Shown: one piece after another, positions 8,706 to 35,145 of the stretch
Numbering within the stretch: position 1 is the stretch's first letter
How the letters are laid out: the number at the start of each line of letters is the position of its first letter
Assembly: GCF_000178155.2 (NCBI RefSeq)
Contig: NZ_ADKM02000069.1
Location: forward strand, 1-56,641
Source: Hominimerdicola alba 8
Lineage (GTDB): Bacteria > Bacillota > Clostridia > Oscillospirales > Ruminococcaceae
Reading direction: 5' to 3'
DNA: 56,641 nucleotides
Notes under the pieces: generated by a model
The model's input: only the letters and a program-made list of their open reading frames with translations
What the model was told of the DNA's origin: nothing
Database searches by the model: none
Program-made: the position numbers and the translations under genes

Positions 8706-9005
8706 TCAGAAGCCTATTCCCTTTTCGTCTGCAAGGTTCACTATCTTCTTGCCCTGTTTCTCTGCATAGCGTATCGTGGCATAAGCTCCTCCGCTTTTAT
8801 GCTGTATACAGCATACCACAAGGTCTGCTCGGTCTATCATACTGCGGTTGCGTACTTGGATAGCGAACTTTGGGTGTGCTTCGGACGATCCGGCACACAC
8901 CTCAACTTCATCATAATAGTCAAGGTATTCCTTTTCGTTGTCACGGTACTCCGATTTCATGTATGGCGGGACGAGCGTAAAATGGGTATTGCCACAAGCG
9001 TGCCA
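8706..9005 (-). pseudogene. SLOG-family (YpsA-like) protein, N-terminally truncated
   Basis: The translation from about 9005 (GNTHFTLVPPY, EYRDNEKEYLDYYDEVEVC, RNRSMIDRADLVVCCI, GGAYATIRYAEKQGKKIVNL) aligns along its length with the C-terminal two thirds of the intact gene at 18704-19171. The N-terminal glycine-rich start (VAFFGHRE) is missing, and upstream sequence is unrelated, so this is a broken copy. SLOG proteins bind nucleotide-like ligands in a Rossmann-type fold, and some serve in defence or toxin systems. Confidence 0.75.
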
Positions 9006-15692: not shown

Positions 15693-15752
15693 ATACTGCA
15701 CCTCCAAAAAGAATTGTAAGATTATTATAGCCTATTCCATTTTCGGAGTCCA

Positions 15753-15789
15753 GCCCTGCACAATAATTGTAATAATTCTTGTGCAGGGC
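15753..15789. promoter_or_regulatory. Inverted repeat with ACAATAATTGTA loop
   Basis: GCCCTGCACAA (15753-15763) pairs perfectly with TTGTGCAGGGC (15779-15789). The interior contains ACAATAATTGTA, the same motif as in front of the DUF6076 gene at 5343-5357. It lies between the MobC-like gene and the small gene downstream of it, and could be an attenuator or operator. Confidence 0.5.
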
Positions 15790-15826
15790 GCAGCAATATA
15801 AGCGTTTTCCTCGGTGCATTTTTCTC

Positions 15827-16234
15827 TTATTTTCTCACGTCCTCGTGAGCCTTATCGACTATCGCTCTGAACGTCTGCGGTGTCACAGCAAAGCGTTCCA
15901 ACTTTGATTGGTACTCTGCAAGCCTTGCGGATATTTCATCAATTCCCTGACGTATTTCCTGCATATCTTCGGGATAAATATTTCCCGTCTGATTGACCTG
16001 AATTGCTATGGAATTTATGCTGTCGGCAATCTCTTTGAATCTTGCCTTGTCGGGTGCAAGCTCCTCGTCCGTCAACTCGATGATTGGTGTCGCAAGAATC
16101 GAATTGTAAATATACTGCGACATTGAGCGCAGACCGCTTTCCTCCGTGTATTGTTTCAGCTTAGCAAACTCCCTGTCATTCAGGCGTATTTTCAACACTT
16201 TTGACTTCCGTTCATCATCACTTTTTACATTCAT
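15827..16234 (-). CDS. MobC-like relaxosome accessory protein
   Basis: 135 residues from ATG 16234 with GGAGG 7 bases upstream (a TTG two codons earlier is unlikely). N-terminal ribbon-helix-helix region (SKVLKIRLNDREFAKLKQYTEESGL, in part), then helical sequence with DSINSIAIQVNQTGNIYPED, the motif seen in MobC/MbeC-type proteins. These bind near oriT and help the relaxase nick plasmid or element DNA. No relaxase gene follows, so the transfer module is incomplete. Confidence 0.75.
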   Translation of the reverse strand: MNVKSDDERKSKVLKIRLNDREFAKLKQYTEESGLRSMSQYIYNSILATPIIELTDEELAPDKARFKEIADSINSIAIQVNQTGNIYPEDMQEIRQGIDEISARLAEYQSKLERFAVTPQTFRAIVDKAHEDVRK

Positions 16235-16299
16235 AGACAAACCTCCAAAATCTTAGTATTCGCCCATTTTCATTATCAATTATATCACTTTTTCTTTCA

Positions 16300-16460
16300 T
16301 TTTTCAAGCGGGGTCTTAGGGGTGCAAAACCCTCTAACAAGCTGTTGTATTCAGGGTGGTCATTTTTCAAACTGTACCCCATGAATACCGTGCTTGCTGG
16401 TAGAGTTTCGCCCCAGTGGGGCGAATGTCATTTCCGAGCCTTTCGGCTCGGTCTTTTTTC
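16300..16460. other. Candidate origin of transfer
   Basis: Directly upstream of the MobC-like gene, this stretch holds three inverted repeats: an imperfect TTAGGGG...CCCTCTAA (16316-16337), the perfect TTCGCCCC-AGT-GGGGCGAA (16407-16425) and CCGAGCC-TTTC-GGCTCGG (16434-16451, followed by TCTTTTTT, also a possible terminator). G-rich imperfect repeats next to mobC are typical of oriT regions; the nick site is not identified. The gap from 16235 to 17467 has no convincing gene. Confidence 0.4.
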
Positions 16461-16683
16461 TCGATTCCGAGAATTGGAGCTGTGCGACTTTCTCTATATC
16501 GTCGCTCCCCATAATCAATATAGCGCACTTTCCCGATCACGTCAATAATAAATTTCAGATTCTTTATGTTCGTTCAAAATCGCTTCGTCAAAATGACCGG
16601 ATAGCGTAAACGGCGTAATAGGTCAATAGTCCCACAGAAGTTTTTCAAAACCAACCATTTTACAGACAATACTGCGGGTTTGC

Positions 16684-16716
16684 ATACCCCCGACATCGTG
16701 TAGGTGTCGGGGGTAT
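16684..16716. repeat. Strong hairpin in the intergenic gap
   Basis: ATACCCCCGACA (16684-16695) and TGTCGGGGGTAT (16705-16716) form a perfect 12-bp stem with a 9-nt loop; the following TTGCTTTAC is only weakly T-rich. Terminator-like or an intergenic repeat. Confidence 0.55.
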
Positions 16717-17354
16717 TGCTTTACAAATAATTGACCTGCTCATTAAACATCTTACAGCTAGTATACCAAGATTTGCATACAGTCATATTATAATGGTATG
16801 GCTCAGATTATAATCGAAATATAAATAAGCATCGTACAAAGCCTGAATGATAGATCTGTACATGAGTATGGCTTTGCACATATAATCAGGTTCTTTTGAT
16901 TTTGTATGGTGTTTTATTGCTTTATACTGTACTATTTCAGATAGCCCCTTTCCGGCATTTATGTGCGGGAAGGGGTTTATAGTGTTTTTATCAAAAAATG
17001 GTTGTGCATGATTCTCAGGTATCATAATGGTATAAAAGTTCATTCCTCATAGAAATTGTGCTAAGCATTCAAAAATATTATTATTTTTGCTAACCAAGAA
17101 AACACCAGCTCCGTGTAATTTGTGCAAAACGGAGAAAACGTGCTAATTGACCTAAAAAAATCGGCTTCTCAACCCCTAACTTATGAGAGGTGAAAATTAT
17201 AAGGCTCTCTCATAAAGGTTAGAATAAGTTCATTTCGCCAATCTTAGTGGTGCAGTGAACTGATTCGTAACTTGAAAATTTCGAGATCGGTCACAGTACC
17301 GATTTCGGAAAATAAAAAATATTAAACTGGAAAACGCAGAAAAATACAGAAGCG

Positions 17355-17374
17355 TTTCGCAAAATCAATCATTT
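17355..17374 (+). repeat. Left arm of a 20-bp inverted repeat around the integrase
   Basis: TTTCGCAAAATCAATCATTT, whose exact reverse complement occurs at 18623-18642. The pair encloses only the tyrosine recombinase gene. Confidence 0.9.
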
Positions 17375-17467
17375 GGAGAAATGACAATAAGCCACATTCT
17401 CTATACTGTTATTATACACGATTTTGCACCGATTGTCAATTATGCAGATAGAATTTTGGAGGATAAA

Positions 17468-18553
17468 ATGATAAGAGGGACAACATATAAAAGAAAGGAC
17501 GGTCGCTGGGAGTGCAGGATCTCGCTTGGCAGCGAATCGGGTCATAAAAAATACCGCTCCTTTTATGGAAAGACCAAGGAAGAAGCGGAGTTGAAAATGG
17601 TCATGGCTTGTCAGAGCGAGGAGCATTGTAACGAAGAAATAACGGAAATGACCGTCAAGGAACTGGCGCTCGAATGGTTCTCCGTAAGCAAAAACAGGAT
17701 TAAGGAATCCACCGCCGCCAATTACCGAATGAAGATAGAAAAACACATCATTCCGCCGTTTGGCGGCATGAACGCTGCGCTTATAAAAGCAAAAGCAGTC
17801 TATGAATTTATGGAGAAAAAGCTGCATGACGGGCTTTCTGCACGTTATATCAGTGATATTATGGTTGTACTAAAGTCGATTTTTCGCTATGCAGCCCGCG
17901 AATACCGTATCAATAACGTAATTGACGGTATAATCATGCCGAAGAAAGCCAAGCCCGAAATAACAATTATGAGCAAGGACGAGCAGAAAAGGCTCGTGAC
18001 CTATATCAACGATAATCGCAGTACTTCCACGCTCGGAGTGGCTCTTTCGCTTTACACTGGCATGAGAATAGGCGAGGTTTGCGCCCTGCGTTGGGAGAAC
18101 ATCGACACAGAAAAACGTGTTCTGACCGTCAGGCACACGATACAGCGTATACAGTGCTTTGAGGGCGACAACAAGACGAAAGTGATTATCGCCGAGCCGA
18201 AAAGCCAATCCTCGCGCCGTGAGATACCCATTCCCGATTGCCTAATCCCCATGCTCAAAGAGCTGAAAGGCAAGAACAGTGCATTCATACTCACGGGGAC
18301 AGAGAAGCCCATTGAGCCGCGCACCATGCAGTATCGCTTTAAGCGTATTCTTGAAAATGCCGGCGTCCGCGAGTACAACTATCATGTGCTCCGTCATTGC
18401 TTCGCGAGCGGTGCAATCGAACTCGGATTCGATGTAAAAACGCTTTCCGAGATTTTAGGACACAGCAGCGTCCAGATCACACTTGACCGTTACATTCATA
18501 CGTCTATGGAGCATAAGCGCAATTGCATGAACCTTTTGACGATAGCTTCTTAA
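17468..18553 (+). CDS. Tyrosine recombinase / site-specific integrase
   Basis: 361 residues from ATG 17468, with GGAGG 6 bases upstream; an earlier in-frame start at 17381 has no ribosome binding site. N-terminal arm-binding domain (1-50), SAM-like core-binding domain (60-150), and a complete catalytic domain: R200 (TGMRIGE), K245, H306 and R309 (HVLRH), H332 (LGHSS) and Y342 (DRYIHT). Such enzymes exchange strands at paired core sites to integrate, excise or invert DNA. The gene is intact and enclosed by a perfect 20-bp inverted repeat, so it may invert the segment carrying itself. Confidence 0.93.
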   Translation: MIRGTTYKRKDGRWECRISLGSESGHKKYRSFYGKTKEEAELKMVMACQSEEHCNEEITEMTVKELALEWFSVSKNRIKESTAANYRMKIEKHIIPPFGGMNAALIKAKAVYEFMEKKLHDGLSARYISDIMVVLKSIFRYAAREYRINNVIDGIIMPKKAKPEITIMSKDEQKRLVTYINDNRSTSTLGVALSLYTGMRIGEVCALRWENIDTEKRVLTVRHTIQRIQCFEGDNKTKVIIAEPKSQSSRREIPIPDCLIPMLKELKGKNSAFILTGTEKPIEPRTMQYRFKRILENAGVREYNYHVLRHCFASGAIELGFDVKTLSEILGHSSVQITLDRYIHTSMEHKRNCMNLLTIAS

Positions 18554-18622
18554 CGTAAATGGTTCGTCAGAAAAGTAGCTTGAAAATTGAATAATAGCGC
18601 CAAAAACTCAACTTTTATCCCG

Positions 18623-18642
18623 AAATGATTGATTTTGCGAAA
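18623..18642 (-). repeat. Right arm of the 20-bp inverted repeat
   Basis: AAATGATTGATTTTGCGAAA, exact reverse complement of 17355-17374; it lies 62 bases before the SLOG gene start, where a promoter would be expected. Confidence 0.9.
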
Positions 18643-18703
18643 TTGGGCTTACTTGTCTATTATATATCAGAGTGCAAGCATTATTCAAGAGCAGGAGGTT
18701 GGC

Positions 18704-19171
18704 GTGAATACATATACCGTAGCATTTTTCGGTCACAGGGAGCTTTCCGACCAATACACAATAGAGGAACGGCTAAAGCCTATTCTGCGTGACCTTATCA
18801 ATAGCAAGGAGTATGTTGAGTTTCTTGTGGGGCGGGACGGTGACTTCGATCAGGCTGCCGCATCTGCTGTTCGTGAGGCTATAAAGCTGTATGGGTTCGG
18901 CAATACGTCGCTTGTTCTGGTTCTGCCTTATGAACGTGCGGAGTACCGAGACAATCGTGAGAGTTTTGAGCAGTATTACGACGAGGTGGAGATATGTGAG
19001 AAATCCTCAAAAGTACACCCGAAAGCAGCTATTTTTGAAAGAAACAAGAGCATGGTTGATCGCAGCGACCTTGTAATCTGTGCTATTGAACATAATGGCG
19101 GCGGAGCGTATAAAGCCGTTAGTTATGCTGAGAAACAGGATAAGAAAATCATAAATCTGTTCGCAGAATAA
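18704..19171 (+). CDS. SLOG-family (YpsA/DUF1273-like) protein
   Basis: 155 residues from GTG 18704, chosen for AGGAGG 5-6 bases upstream. It begins TYTVAFFGHRELS, a Rossmann-type nucleotide-binding start. It continues with a conserved FLVGRDGDFDQ, LVLPYERAEYRDN, RNKSMVDRSDLVICAIEHNGGGAY (split here) pattern. SLOG proteins are predicted to bind or make nucleotide-derived ligands, and some act in phage defence or stress signalling. A truncated relative lies at 8706-9005. The next gene start is that of a helicase fragment, which suggests they once formed a module. Confidence 0.78.
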   Translation: MNTYTVAFFGHRELSDQYTIEERLKPILRDLINSKEYVEFLVGRDGDFDQAAASAVREAIKLYGFGNTSLVLVLPYERAEYRDNRESFEQYYDEVEICEKSSKVHPKAAIFERNKSMVDRSDLVICAIEHNGGGAYKAVSYAEKQDKKIINLFAE

Positions 19172-19267
19172 AAATGCCGAAATAGCGTTGATTCAGCTAT
19201 CTCGGGGTGTCGTGAAATAGCATATTTCGAGAGAACAATCGACCCGAAAGTCTGAGAAGGTGAGGAT

Positions 19268-19657
19268 ATGTTTCTGCATAAACACAATCGTGAGACTTAT
19301 GCAAACATGGTGCGCCTTTTTCAGACCGAGCAGCGAGTGGCTGCGGTACAGCCAACCGGAACCGGGAAGAGTTATCTTATCATGCAGCTTATCGAGGATA
19401 ATGTTGATAAGAGGTTTGCGGTCTGCTCTCCCTCAACTTACATTTTCGAGCAGATGAAGTCGCTTGCGGAGGGAAATAACATTTCTCTTGAAAAAAACGA
19501 TTTCCTCACATACACAAAGCTGACTCAGACCGAAGCGTTCTCGGAATATGACTACCTTATACTGGACGAAATGCATCGTTGCGGCGCAAGCTGTTGGAGC
19601 ATTGGTGTTCAACGATTAATTGACAGCAACCCGAACGCTAAAGTGTTCGGAACGTCG
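19268..19657 (+). pseudogene. DEAD/DEAH-type helicase, N-terminal fragment
   Basis: Starts at ATG 19268 with GAAGGTGAGG just upstream. Walker A QPTGTGKSY near residues 28-36, and a DEMH Walker B box (LILDEMHRCGA) near residue 105. The frame leaves helicase sequence after KVFGTSA, where motif III and the C-terminal RecA domain should follow; the sequence then becomes the tail of an unrelated acyltransferase. Helicases of this type (superfamily 2) occur in restriction and defence islands. Only about 130 residues remain, so it cannot work. Confidence 0.8.
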
Positions 19658-19800
19658 GCAAGGTCGATGCTGTGTGCAATCCTGGTACTGTCATAGGCAG
19701 ACATAGTAATGTTTATCCGACTTCTTGCGTTAGGGGCGTTGTGCCTGCTGATTCGATTTGGAATGACAATGGCGAGATTATTCACAAGGAAGATAGGTAA
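19658..19800 (+). pseudogene. Hexapeptide acyltransferase C-terminal fragment
   Basis: From about 19663 the frame reads VDAVCNPGTVIGRHSNVYP then TSCVRGVVPADSIWNDNGEI and stops at TAA 19798-19800. The NPGTVIG and SNVYP periodicity is that of a left-handed beta-helix acetyltransferase tail. No N-terminal part exists; the fragment abuts the helicase fragment directly, marking a deletion or insertion junction. Confidence 0.6.
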
Positions 19801-19848: not shown

Positions 19849-21084
19849 ATGGCAGCAGAATTGAGCACGACACAAATTGCATTATTAGAGGCGATAAAAG
19901 CATCGTTATTTGGAACAGATCCTAATTATCCCACTGATACAGATTGGACGGAGGTCGTAAAAGAAGCAAAACCGCAGACGGTCTTAGGAATCATTAGTCC
20001 TATTATTCCTGTGAAAGATGTAAGTGTTGAAATGGGTAAGGCAACGTACATGAGGCTTCTGTTTGAGCAGGATAAACTTATAAAGCTGCTTGATGCCAAT
20101 GATATTCCTTGTGTTATACTCAAAGGTTCTGCTGCTGCACAGTATTACCCGAAGCCGCATTTAAGGGCTATGGGGGATGTGGATTTTCTTGTACCTAAAG
20201 ATATGTTTGAGACTGCTATAATGCTTTTAGAATCGAAAGGGTATGAATACCATCATGGCAAAACTAAAGACGGCAAGATACCCGAAGATGTTAGACATAT
20301 TGGTTATGTGAAAAATGGAATCGAATTTGAATTACATCATCATTTTAGCTCATATGGATTTAATATTGACGATATTATTGAATTGGCAATTTATAAAAAG
20401 GAGTATCGTAATATCGATGGATACAATATTCCTGTGTTGCCGGATTTTGAAAATGGACTTGTACTATTAGGACATATTAACCAGCATTTAATATCTCAAA
20501 ACTTAGGGTTAAGGCAGATAATAGACTGGTCAATCTATATTCATACTGAGATATACGAGTTCATCAAATCAAAAGGATATATCGGTTCTGTTGCAGCGAT
20601 ACGAATGTTTATGCAAAAAGAACGGGCTCACGCTAAAAGGTTAGGTCTGCATGGCGGAAAGGACTATATTCATAGGATTACGCTTTCTCAACTCGTATAT
20701 CGCAATCTGGAAGATGTAAAGCTGATCACTCAGGATCAATATGAAGCGCTTCTTAAACAGTATCCGGAACTTGCTGCTTTATATGGCATCTTAAGAGATT
20801 TCCATCGTATTGTCTTCTCTAAAAAAGCAGAAGATCTTGAACACTGGATAGAACAGGCTTCCCATTTGGATGCCGTCCCTGAATTAAAGTCATTTGTTGA
20901 CGGTTTGAAACATGATATATTTGCAATAAAAAATGCAATTATGTTCGATTACAACAATGGCCTTGCCGAGGGCAGCGTGACAAAAATCAAACTCATTAAG
21001 CGAATAATGTACGGTCGAAACAGCTTTGCTCTGCTTAAAGCTAAAGTCCTGATGCATGAGCTTTTATACGCAAACAGCAACTAA
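19849..21084 (+). pseudogene. Nucleotidyltransferase-like gene fused to an ISL3-type transposase tail
   Basis: One open frame of 411 codons. Residues 1-231 resemble the PF14907 nucleotidyltransferase-like family (IPCVILKGSAAAQYYPKPHLR with the following MGDVDFLV, split here), linked to polysaccharide or peptide modification loci. From base 20543 on, the sequence is that of the transposase at 32448-33752 with one amino-acid difference noted (DFHRIV against DLHRIV). The insertion happens to keep the frame open. The hybrid keeps the likely catalytic GSxxxxxx...GDVD centre but loses the family's C-terminal region; it may be made as a chimeric protein but is more probably dead. Confidence 0.8.
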
Positions 21085-32215: not shown

Positions 32216-32447
32216 AAGTTCACCCCCGTCAATTTTGTTTATTATATCATCATTCCGTGGAGATGTCAATATCATCATATACGCCATACACGCCAAACGC
32301 ACGATCGATTATTCTTAAATGACTTTCCATTCTCTGTTATGCACAACAGAATGTCAAGAAATGCTGCCTAACTCATAACTAAAGTAGCTGCATACGTTAA
32401 GGGAAAAAACTTCTTGATGGTAAGCGTATAATCGGCTCTTTCCAATG

Positions 32448-33752
32448 TTAGTTGCTGTTTGCGTATAAAAGCTCATGCATCAGGACTTTAGCTTTAAGCA
32501 GAGCAAAGCTGTTTCGACCGTACATTATTCGCTTAATGAGTTTGATTTTTGTCACGCTGCCCTCGGCAAGGCCATTGTTGTAATCGAACATAATTGCATT
32601 TTTTATTGCAAATATATCATGTTTCAAACCGTCAACAAATGACTTTAATTCAGGGACGGCATCCAAATGGGAAGCCTGTTCTATCCAGTGTTCAAGATCT
32701 TCTGCTTTTTTAGAGAAGACAATACGATGGAGATCTCTTAAGATGCCATATAAAGCAGCAAGTTCCGGATACTGTTTAAGAAGCGCTTCATATTGATCCT
32801 GAGTGATCAGCTTTACATCTTCCAGATTGCGATATACGAGTTGAGAAAGCGTAATCCTATGAATATAGTCCTTTCCGCCATGCAGACCTAACCTTTTAGC
32901 GTGAGCCCGTTCTTTTTGCATAAACATTCGTATCGCTGCAACAGAACCGATATATCCTTTTGATTTGATGAACTCGTATATCTCAGTATAAGTTTGACCG
33001 TTGCTGCGCATAGATATGATATCCTGTTCATATGGTGTCAATTTTCCACGCCGTTTTAAGTCATAATGGCCGTTGTGAGGCGAGAAGTCTGGATTCAGAT
33101 AATTCCTTATGGTTTTGGACGAATGATGTGTGGCACATGCTATTTCTGTGACGGTCATCCCTTCATCAAATAATTGTCGGACATGCTTTATTTCGTTCTC
33201 TTTTCGTTTAATTGTTTCATTGTACTGCCTTTCACGGACAGTATCCTTGTCCTTTGGGATTTGATCTTCCGGAATCGAAAGATAATTTTCAACTGTTCTG
33301 ACTCCGGCGTGAAGAAGATAGGCTATTTCCTGTACAGTAAGCCCTTCTTTCCGTTTCGAATGAGCATATCTGATTCTTTGTGTGCGATTTGCAGTATCAT
33401 AAAGCGCTTGCATCTGTTTAGAGTATTCTGTATGAGATTCAATTCCAACTCGAGATGGAAATTTATTTTTGATGTATCTATCAACAACTTCGGCCAGATT
33501 TTTTAATAGATGAAAACGATCAGTTACTTGAACAGCATCCGGATGTGCTTTGGCTCCTGCTGAAGCGTATTCGGACGCGCCATCTCGTGAAATCATTAAT
33601 ATGTTTGGATATGTACTGAGCCATACACTTACTTCAGTACTCTCTCTTGAAGGAATCATATCAATGATTCTGTGAGTATCCCAATCAACCATAACAGTGC
33701 CGTATGAATACCGCTTCTTTAATGCAAAGTCATCAATACAAACTCTATACAC
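32448..33752 (-). pseudogene. ISL3-type transposase, main (DDE) part
   Basis: 434 residues in this frame starting YRVCIDDFALKKRYSYG, the DDE domain of ISL3 transposases. It has the first aspartate region (DDFALKK), DRFHLLKN, a central helix-turn-helix region and the C-terminal NGLAEGSVTKIKLIKR motif with the catalytic glutamate. The N-terminal zinc-finger part lies in a different frame at 33760-34203; the two are separated at a run of nine A (T on the plus strand, 33779-33787). Unless slippage restores the frame, the transposase is inactive. Confidence 0.9.
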
Positions 33753-33759
33753 CTTTGAT

Positions 33760-34203
33760 TTATCTACGATCAGAGGTGTTTTTTTTTAGCAGCGTACAAA
33801 TAGAGCTCTTTCCAATGATGATGTTTTCGTTTTTTAATAACCTACTGGAACAAACAGAACTCATCTCAGAAGATGTTTTTAGTATTCTTTCGATCAGACG
33901 ATTTGTCTTTTGTGCATTTGGATTTACAAACGGATGTCGTTCTGCAAAAGTACTATGTCTGCACTCAGGATTTATGCATTTCATTTTACGTGTGGTCACT
34001 ATAAGGATTGTCTTCCGGTCAGAGATAGGTAGATCCTGTATTTCTCGCGTATGATAAGAATGCACTCTACCGGTCATCGTTTCACAGTATGGGCAGCATA
34101 ATTTTTCCAGAGTTGAAGTTATATATAAAATGATTTCTGAATCGGTAATACGTGTATCACACAGTCTGTAGTTTCTATCCAATGAACTGATTACAGCATT
34201 CAT
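33760..34203 (-). pseudogene. ISL3-type transposase, N-terminal zinc-finger part
   Basis: 147 residues with the zinc finger CPYCETMTGRVHSYHTR...CINPECRHSTF typical of the start of ISL3 transposases, then a helix-turn-helix region. The reading frame ends shortly after the A9 run, with the remaining protein continuing in the +1 frame. ISL3 transposases are normally one open frame of about 430-580 residues. Confidence 0.88.
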
Positions 34204-34284
34204 TTCGCATCCCTCCGATAGTATTTGTCATCTATATTATATAACTTTAATGATTTAATGTCAACTAACATTGGAAAGAGCCGA

Positions 34285-35145
34285 ACTGTCAGCTACAAAA
34301 ATCACAAGGTTATCAAAAATGACGAAGAAGATATGATCGTTGTGAAAAATACGCACGAGCCTATCGTTTCTCAGGAGCTTTGGGACAGGGTGCGTGAGAT
34401 GGAGCAATCGGTGTCGCAGGGCAAGCGTAATAGCAGCGGGTATGTAGCAAATCTCAGCGGTTTGATCTACTGTCAGGACTGCGGAAACAAAGTCCGCCTT
34501 GCGTGGAACAACACCACAAACGGCAGTAAGAAGAAGCCGAGAAAATATCTTCGTCACAATTACAACTGCACTTCCTACATGAAGTTTGGAAAGCGTTACT
34601 GTCCGAGCCATTACATCAAAATGCAGGATATGGACGCTATTGTGCTTGAAGATATTCGCAGCCTTGCACAGCTTGTTGTAGAGGACGAGGAGAAAGCAAA
34701 GGAGCGTTTTCTTGAACGCAAGGCAAAGCACCACGAGGAGCAGTATTCCGTTGACACCAAGAAGCTCACAGAGGGCAAATTTCGCTTGCAGGAGCTTGAC
34801 ACACTGATCCAGAACATCTACGAGGACAAAGTCCTCAGCAAGGTTTCGGAGGATGTAGCGATGAAGCTCATAGCAAAGTACGAGACCGAGCAGAAAGAGC
34901 TGTCCGCCGAAGTCGCAGACCTCGAAGAAAAGTTCTCCACGATCAGGCAGGACGAAGAAGATGTAGCCATGTTTATGGAGCGTCTGAAAAAGTACACGGA
35001 TGTGCAGGAGCTTAGCCGTGAGATGTGCCTTGAACTGATTGAGTATATCACCCTTGATGCCTATATCGAAGGGCAACCCCGTGAGATCTACATCTACTAC
35101 AAACTGCTCGATGAACCGCTCAAGGACAAGAGAAGCCTGTTTTAA
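34285..35145 (+). pseudogene. Large serine recombinase, C-terminal fragment
   Basis: About 287 codons starting TVSYKNHKVIKNDEEDMIVV just after the IS end. Recombinase-domain end (HEPIVSQELWDRV), zinc ribbon (LIYCQDCGNKVRLAW...CTSYMKFGKRYC) and a long coiled coil (about 150-240), ending DEPLKDKRSLF. The catalytic N-terminal domain with the serine is gone. It is a different family member from the intact enzyme at 6850-8475. The upstream in-frame ATG lies inside the IS and is not the original start. Confidence 0.88.

Follow-up and report, generated by a model that had tools for sequence, protein, structure and literature searches.

A probable self-contained invertible promoter cassette upstream of a SLOG-like gene in Hominimerdicola alba 8

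Organization of the locus

The window analyzed in this study is a stretch of 56,641 nucleotides from Hominimerdicola alba 8. It contains a tyrosine recombinase gene enclosed by two inverted arms, followed by a SLOG-like gene and a truncated helicase gene (Table 1). Both arms have the sequence TTTCGCAAAATCAATCATTT, and the 20 bp inverted repeat reported in the original prediction (17355–17374 / 18623–18642) is exact. When the window was shuffled (20 shuffles), perfect inverted repeats within 3 kb were no longer than 12–15 bp, and even with up to 3 mismatches the window holds only the two arm copies (0.03 expected by chance). A chance repeat was therefore rejected. The whole genome (G000) has no further exact copies of the arm, and 3 more places match it with 3 mismatches. 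The left arm is composed of an outer half-site, TTTCGCAAA, and a spacer starting with ATCAATC, and the inner half-site extends to approximately 17381. The segment is thus bounded by inverted repeats in the manner of invertons. Neither an Rfam family at the gathering threshold nor a tRNA was found in the window. One other inverted repeat of at least 20 bp within 3 kb is present in the window (32432–32454 / 34262–34284). It surrounds ISL3 transposase genes, and the corresponding ISL3-type insertion sequence (32432–34284), with perfect 23 bp terminal repeats, adjoins a serine recombinase fragment (34225–35145).

Table 1. Features of the candidate cassette and of the genes to its right
Feature	Position	Strand	Basis
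Left inverted-repeat arm (candidate recombination site)	17355–17374	+	Exact repeat; anatomy from 70 aligned loci
Putative sigma-70-type promoter motif, TTGACA-N17-TATAAT	17411–17439	-	Motif match 12/12; conserved in the family
Tyrosine recombinase, 361 aa, Tn1549/lambda-Int-type fold	17468–18553	+	Pfam PF00589, PF14659
Right inverted-repeat arm	18623–18642	-	Exact reverse complement of the left arm
Weak promoter-like sequence, TTGCGA-N17-TATTAT	18635–18663	+	Motif match 9/12; overlaps the right arm
Likely SLOG ribosome-binding site, AGGAGG	18693–18698	+	Sequence
SLOG-like (YpsA-like) gene, 155 aa, proposed switch target	18704–19171	+	Sub-threshold match of an orthologue
Truncated helicase, 142 aa, presumably follows SLOG in the target operon	19268–19696	+	Related 743-aa ORF of R. 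albus 7 pRUMAL02

The recombinase appears intact, as had been proposed: its catalytic set is complete (R200, K245, H306, R309, H332 and Y342), and all six residues are invariant in an alignment of 20 sequences of recombinase relatives. A longer reading frame starting at 17381 was replaced by one starting at the ATG at 17468, the start common to relatives. An AlphaFold model of the protein (mean pLDDT 86.2) was closest to the solved structure of the Tn1549 integrase (6emz, E 6.3e-15), followed by XerA and lambda Int. The match to the solved Tn1549 integrase covers residues 82–397, and an N-terminal domain of three strands plus a helix is predicted in the model.

It had been suggested that the arms flank only the recombinase gene. 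This is indeed the one recognizable gene inside, but the segment also holds a promoter motif that was not mentioned at the time. The motif is the top promoter-like site in the region 15700–19400, with a perfect consensus (-35 at 17439–17434, -10 at 17416–17411), and sits between the left arm and the recombinase gene. In the assembled orientation, it points to the left, out through the left arm and away from the SLOG-like gene. If the segment were flipped (by arithmetic, x becomes 35997 - x), the -35 element would lie at 18558–18563 and the -10 element at 18581–18586 on the plus strand, approximately 118 bases ahead of the start codon of SLOG at 18704. The internal promoter that faces the adjacent gene of an inverton in one orientation is represented here by this motif match (12/12). 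The distance between the right arm and the start codon is 61 bases (18643–18703) rather than the 62 bases given earlier. The weak promoter-like sequence at the right arm could, judging from the motif, serve as a basal SLOG promoter active in either state.

The SLOG label itself is weak: no family was matched significantly by the window protein, and the YpsA match of an orthologue falls just below the cut-off. PADLOC reported nothing for this protein. A partial second SLOG-like fragment occurs elsewhere in the window (8730–9002, minus strand) and is 57% identical to residues 63–153 of the SLOG-like protein. Just after the truncated helicase gene, a single ORF (19849–21084) combines an NTP_transf_5 nucleotidyltransferase domain with an ISL3 transposase end.

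Distribution of the cassette in related genomes

Homologs of the recombinase were searched for in 61 relatives, in 29 genomes of the genus, 297 of the family and 394 of the order, and in genome_contigs. For the family and order genomes, up to 6 and up to 5 candidates per genome, respectively, were scored, and the counts are therefore lower bounds. Copies with at least 300 aligned residues and at least 190 bits were included, and shorter ones, such as G027:C18 (238-residue match), were left out. At least 118 copies were obtained, including that of the window, and 116 after removal of L177 and L179, which are the same records as L038 and L039. The first set covered approximately 66 of 98 places in the family and approximately 41 of 61 in the order. 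The rest, mostly the weakest, went into a held-out set of 51 stretches, including one copy omitted from the first set; 43 of these passed the filter. Three loci near-identical to L217 (L203, L216 and L218) were kept in the contig-end, spacer and promoter counts and dropped from the GTCA, flip-pair and terminator counts, which refer to 96 cassettes.

Arms scoring at least 14 were found around 99 of the 116 recombinase copies and arms scoring at least 17 around 93, whereas the shuffle maximum was 14 (20 shuffles per copy; 15 for one dropped duplicate record). The arm pair was perfect in 70 cases, and the armed segments were 1203–1593 bp long (median 1394). Held-out copies behaved in the same way (33/43 at 14 or above and 31/43 at 17 or above, with a shuffle maximum of 14 in 860). 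Among 22 more distant tyrosine recombinases, none had arms scoring at least 17 and one had arms scoring at least 14. Armless by score were 17 of the 116 copies and 10 of the 43 held-out copies, some of which are stretches cut by contig ends; a truncated copy on C52 of the window's own genome is one of the armless copies. It had been considered that the arms might be relics of two insertions; this was rejected because such relics would not recur around ~100 homologues. At one locus (L154, G190:C48), the arms belong to a very long repeat with a score of 172, and the outer flanks also resemble each other in inverted orientation.

The outward promoter is likewise a property of the family. A motif scoring at least 11/12 was detected in 51 of the 99 armed cassettes, and a 12/12 motif in 21; the corresponding inward counts were 1 and 0, and dinucleotide shuffles of the armed cassettes gave 0.35 and 0. 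Spacing was 17 in 50 of these 51 cassettes. When cassettes were grouped by identity to the window recombinase, the share with an outward promoter fell with distance, from 12/16 at 50% or above and 23/34 at 43–50% to 16/49 below, and the low share in this most distant part speaks against a general role of the promoter. Held-out, distant armed cassettes had an outward promoter in 13/33 cases and an inward one in 1/33. As a control, the usual polarity was seen upstream of the other genes of these stretches, where a promoter pointed toward the gene in 31/164 cases and away from it in 9/164. One sub-group (L018, L020, L021, L024, L047 and L199) has TATACCA-type arms instead of TTTCG and carries a TATAAT-like motif within the arm or close to it, without a clear internal promoter.

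Inside the segment ends, GTCA motifs 12 bases apart were present (32 and 21 pairs in the 96 cassettes), which we take to resemble arm-type sites; no such pair was seen in the window's own segment. A terminator between the recombinase gene and the right arm was found in 12/96 cassettes and is no general family trait. Of the 87 loci at which both neighboring genes are known, only 2 have both genes reading toward the cassette, which favors a promoter switch.

We assigned Pfam families to 94 of the 109 neighboring genes that read away from a cassette, after setting aside 6 duplicates as well as 9 genes that were cut or very long. LytTR response regulators (15), other integrases (8), HTH proteins (8), ResIII-type helicases (6), signal peptidases (4) and dockerin proteins (3) were found among them. 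In addition, a type III restriction-modification (R-M) system lies behind SLOG in G002, and glycosyltransferase or Wzz-like genes adjoin other cassettes. Such variety of neighboring gene families indicates that the targets of the cassette are diverse. In L074 (G003:C68), the cassette has a MobL relaxase gene on one side and, on the other, a LytTR regulator paired with a GHKL kinase, and clustering indicated the same gene order in L076 (G033:C14). In L206 (G581), it adjoins another tyrosine recombinase of 310 aa, and the flank of L207, from the same genome, is 93% identical to it.

Two recombinase copies surround SLOG in R. albus 7 pRUMAL02 (L066 / L084) and in G005 (L067). One precedes SLOG, and the second, which is absent from the window and armless by score, lies in the opposite orientation between SLOG and the helicase gene, where a 12/12 promoter faces the helicase.

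The occurrence of the cassette at many unrelated sites, where its neighbors include R-M genes, LytTR regulators and dockerin proteins, among others, would also be expected of a minimal mobile element whose ends are the arms, whose recombinase mobilizes the segment and for which inversion is a by-product. The additional recombinase copy in R. albus 7 and G005, the presence of identical left flanks and cassettes in four genomes (L203 and L216–L218) and a fold nearest to that of the Tn1549 integrase are consistent with this explanation as well. However, Tn916- and lambda-type integrative elements leave direct att sites, whereas both sites here are inverted, and, with up to 3 mismatches allowed, the window contains no direct copy of the arm. 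We therefore rejected the possibility that the arms are direct att sites belonging to a larger element. The segment ends also lack the target-site duplication that accompanies the terminal inverted repeats of insertion sequences, the outer flanks being AAAAATACAGAAGCG and TTGGGCTTACTTGTC. Moreover, a mobile element has no evident need for an outward promoter or for paired identical spacers. We regard this explanation as quite unlikely.

Spacer identity, orientation and the downstream gene

To characterize the arms, we aligned 70 of the 99 loci, namely those with a TTTCGyAAA-like half-site and an arm of at most 45 bases. Each site has two half-sites around a spacer of approximately 7 bases. At spacer positions 10–16, the two arms of the same locus differed at 2 of 490 positions, both in one locus, whereas between loci the differences were 0.30 at position 10, 0.71–0.73 at positions 11–15 and 0.48 at position 16. 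Many mismatches were tolerated at the inner half-site positions. The arms were found by similarity, and loci with diverged arms would be missed; nevertheless, such a bias would not easily account for near-total identity within loci at spacer positions that vary freely from one locus to another. Tyrosine recombinases generally require identity in the overlap region, and the within-locus identity of the spacers is therefore a prediction of active exchange between the two arms. In one genome (G639), a single arm sequence is common to three loci (L208, L210 and L211), which would make cross-talk possible.

Natural inversion was observed for a homologous cassette. The IMG/VR contig 3300026549_001598 (L255) and G013:C37 (L072) have colinear flanks, 99.95% identical over 3813 and 3924 bases, and between them a cassette in opposite orientation that is 100% identical over 1381 bases. 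The 1327 bp between the 27 bp arms are identical only when one copy is reversed, and the displayed bases outside the two junctions do not differ. The promoter is directed toward a restriction-type helicase gene in L255 and away from it in G013, where a type IIG restriction-modification gene comes next after the helicase gene. The G013 module also occurs in flipped form in R. albus 7 (cassette 89% and flank 91% identical). Among the 96 armed cassettes, 26 pairs had arm-adjacent flanks at least 80% identical; 20 of these were in the same orientation and 6 were flipped, the latter representing 4 independent groups. In three of the groups, one flank is homologous, and these three alone would also be compatible with insertion in opposite orientations; the fourth (G024:C108 and C208) has both flanks homologous over approximately 300 bases.

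Comparison of the locus in relatives gave a mixed answer. All five comparable SLOG-linked cassettes (the window, G002, G005, G006 and R. albus 7 pRUMAL02) are in one orientation, with the promoter pointing away from SLOG, and reversal was seen in the homologous L255/G013 cassette. The window contig is assembled across both arms, which counts against inversion here. In viral_contigs, neither a match to the window arm nor a relative of the SLOG protein was detected; a viral search with a single protein as query likewise had no hit, and a search of viral_contigs with the promoter motif gave two contigs, neither of which had a related recombinase. A contig end was located within 200 nt outside an arm in 7 of the 99 armed cassettes, compared with 1.36 expected. 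This excess fits mixed orientations that break assemblies and is suggestive only.

The original prediction had also raised the alternative that the arms are accessory binding sites. In this case, the recombinase might occupy them for a regulatory purpose such as autoregulation, and the segment would normally not invert. Operator-like sites around DNA-binding genes are common, and the uniform orientation of the five SLOG-linked copies would agree with this. However, there would be no need for identical spacers at accessory sites, and the spacer is fixed within a locus yet free between loci. The L255/G013 pair, in which a homologous cassette is exactly reversed although its flanks are nearly identical, and the four flip groups argue in the same direction, and this alternative appears highly improbable. 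The idea of a self-inverting cassette, on the other hand, is backed by the arms of the family, the within-locus spacer identity, the four flip groups and the reversed L255/G013 pair.

We consider it very probable that the segment 17355–18642 is a self-contained invertible-promoter switch, and this piece can probably flip and turn the neighboring gene on or off. The enclosed tyrosine recombinase would bind both inverted arms, and strand exchange across the identical arm spacers would invert the 1.25 kb segment, including the recombinase gene and the outward promoter. In the assembled orientation, the promoter would read to the left, away from SLOG (OFF); after inversion, it would cross the right arm and read into SLOG, which starts at 18704 (ON). 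We infer from the family that this copy is inverted by its enclosed enzyme. Going by the sequence, the promoter motif would be active and SLOG expression would follow the orientation of the segment.

The promoters of SLOG orthologues bear on this model. SLOG was found at 19 places in the genus, and in five of them a cassette is directly upstream. In these five, the best promoter within 250 bases scores 7.5–9 and none reaches 10/12, whereas without an upstream cassette a promoter of at least 10/12, and up to 12, was present in 9 of 10 usable places. The probability of this contrast would be approximately 0.002 if the copies were independent, which is not fully so (L236 and L237 are near-identical, and L240, L241 and L245 are alike). 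This comparison excludes L242 and L246–L248, whose alignments lack at least 36 residues at the start, and includes L244 (19 residues unaligned) and L240 (internal stop). Because of this contrast, the cassette seems to substitute for a fixed SLOG promoter. The claim that inversion would change what feeds transcription into SLOG is therefore supported by both the outward promoter and the fixed promoter of cassette-free orthologues.

Since the helicase gene after SLOG is truncated, the target operon may be decayed. It is conceivable, though unlikely, that the family inverts and that this particular copy is a frozen relic, locked OFF or irrelevant. The helicase has been cut to 142 aa, one orientation of the cassette is known at this locus, and the same genome contains truncated sister cassettes (C52 and C92). 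Nevertheless, the window copy has a recombinase with all catalytic residues, perfect arms and a 12/12 promoter, and the reading frame and ribosome-binding site of SLOG are intact. In the sister cassettes L064 (G000:C52) and L045 (G000:C92), the left arm and the outward promoter are identical, and a right arm was not found on either stretch; in L064, the end of the recombinase is lost and the promoter faces a serine-recombinase-type gene.

Relation to known inversion systems

In the Hin/H-segment switch of Salmonella, a recombinase and an outward promoter lie inside a segment with two inverted sites and control a neighboring operon. Hin, Gin, Cin and Pin are serine DNA invertases. The cassette described here also has a recombinase and an outward promoter inside, two inverted sites and a proposed adjacent target. 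It differs in that its enzyme is not a serine but a tyrosine recombinase (PF00589, catalytic Y342) with a Tn1549/lambda-like fold, and in having half-sites around a spacer of approximately 7 bases. Location of the recombinase gene between the arms agrees with that of the hin gene, which is within its invertible segment according to the accessible part of PMC5903667. The best reading of these features is a Hin-like layout that is nevertheless built on a Tn1549-type enzyme of the other recombinase superfamily.

To our knowledge, the promoter-inverting tyrosine recombinases described so far act mostly on short segments from outside. The fimS/FimB-FimE system, RecV of C. difficile and the group 139 invertons resemble the cassette in their inverted repeats, a promoter between them and a tyrosine recombinase, but their segments are short and the recombinase is nearby, whereas the cassette encloses its enzyme and has a median length of 1.39 kb. 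In the accessible part of PMC11892184, group 139 invertons of gut Clostridia (32/33 from Clostridia) are linked to a tyrosine recombinase group, and two examples have, by the printed coordinates, approximately 200–230 bp between the repeats (PMC11892184), which is too short for a recombinase gene. An enclosed recombinase ORF has been described for a putative 844 bp invertible segment near a fimbrial locus of Providencia stuartii; in the text available, this is one example with 14 bp imperfect repeats, and the likeness to the cassette lies in the enclosed recombinase (PMC5903667). The cassette resembles Tn916/Tn1549 integrases in its nearest solved fold and in the GTCA motifs in the segment ends of the family, and the N-terminal domain predicted in the model may be an arm-binding domain, but its sites are inverted and enclose the recombinase gene and no other recognizable gene. 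We did not recognize the cassette family in the accessible portions of the inverton literature (including PMC8987985, PMC11868660 and PMC10333322), which does not establish its absence from print.

In this family, enzyme, promoter and sites form one unit, with more than 100 copies in related bacteria. We lean slightly toward the view that these are widespread portable switches of Ruminococcus and its order, in which the recombinase, the outward promoter and arms with locus-specific spacers would constitute a 1.2–1.6 kb unit that spreads between operons (R-M, LytTR two-component, dockerin or surface proteins and other recombinases), replaces the fixed promoter and makes each operon phase-variable. 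The cassettes also offer small inversion switches that use a single enzyme each and differ in their spacers, and with them it could readily be tested to what extent cross-talk among the switches of a genome is restricted by spacer identity. If this view is true, Ruminococcus and its relatives would switch restriction-modification, regulatory and surface genes by means of a general plug-in device.
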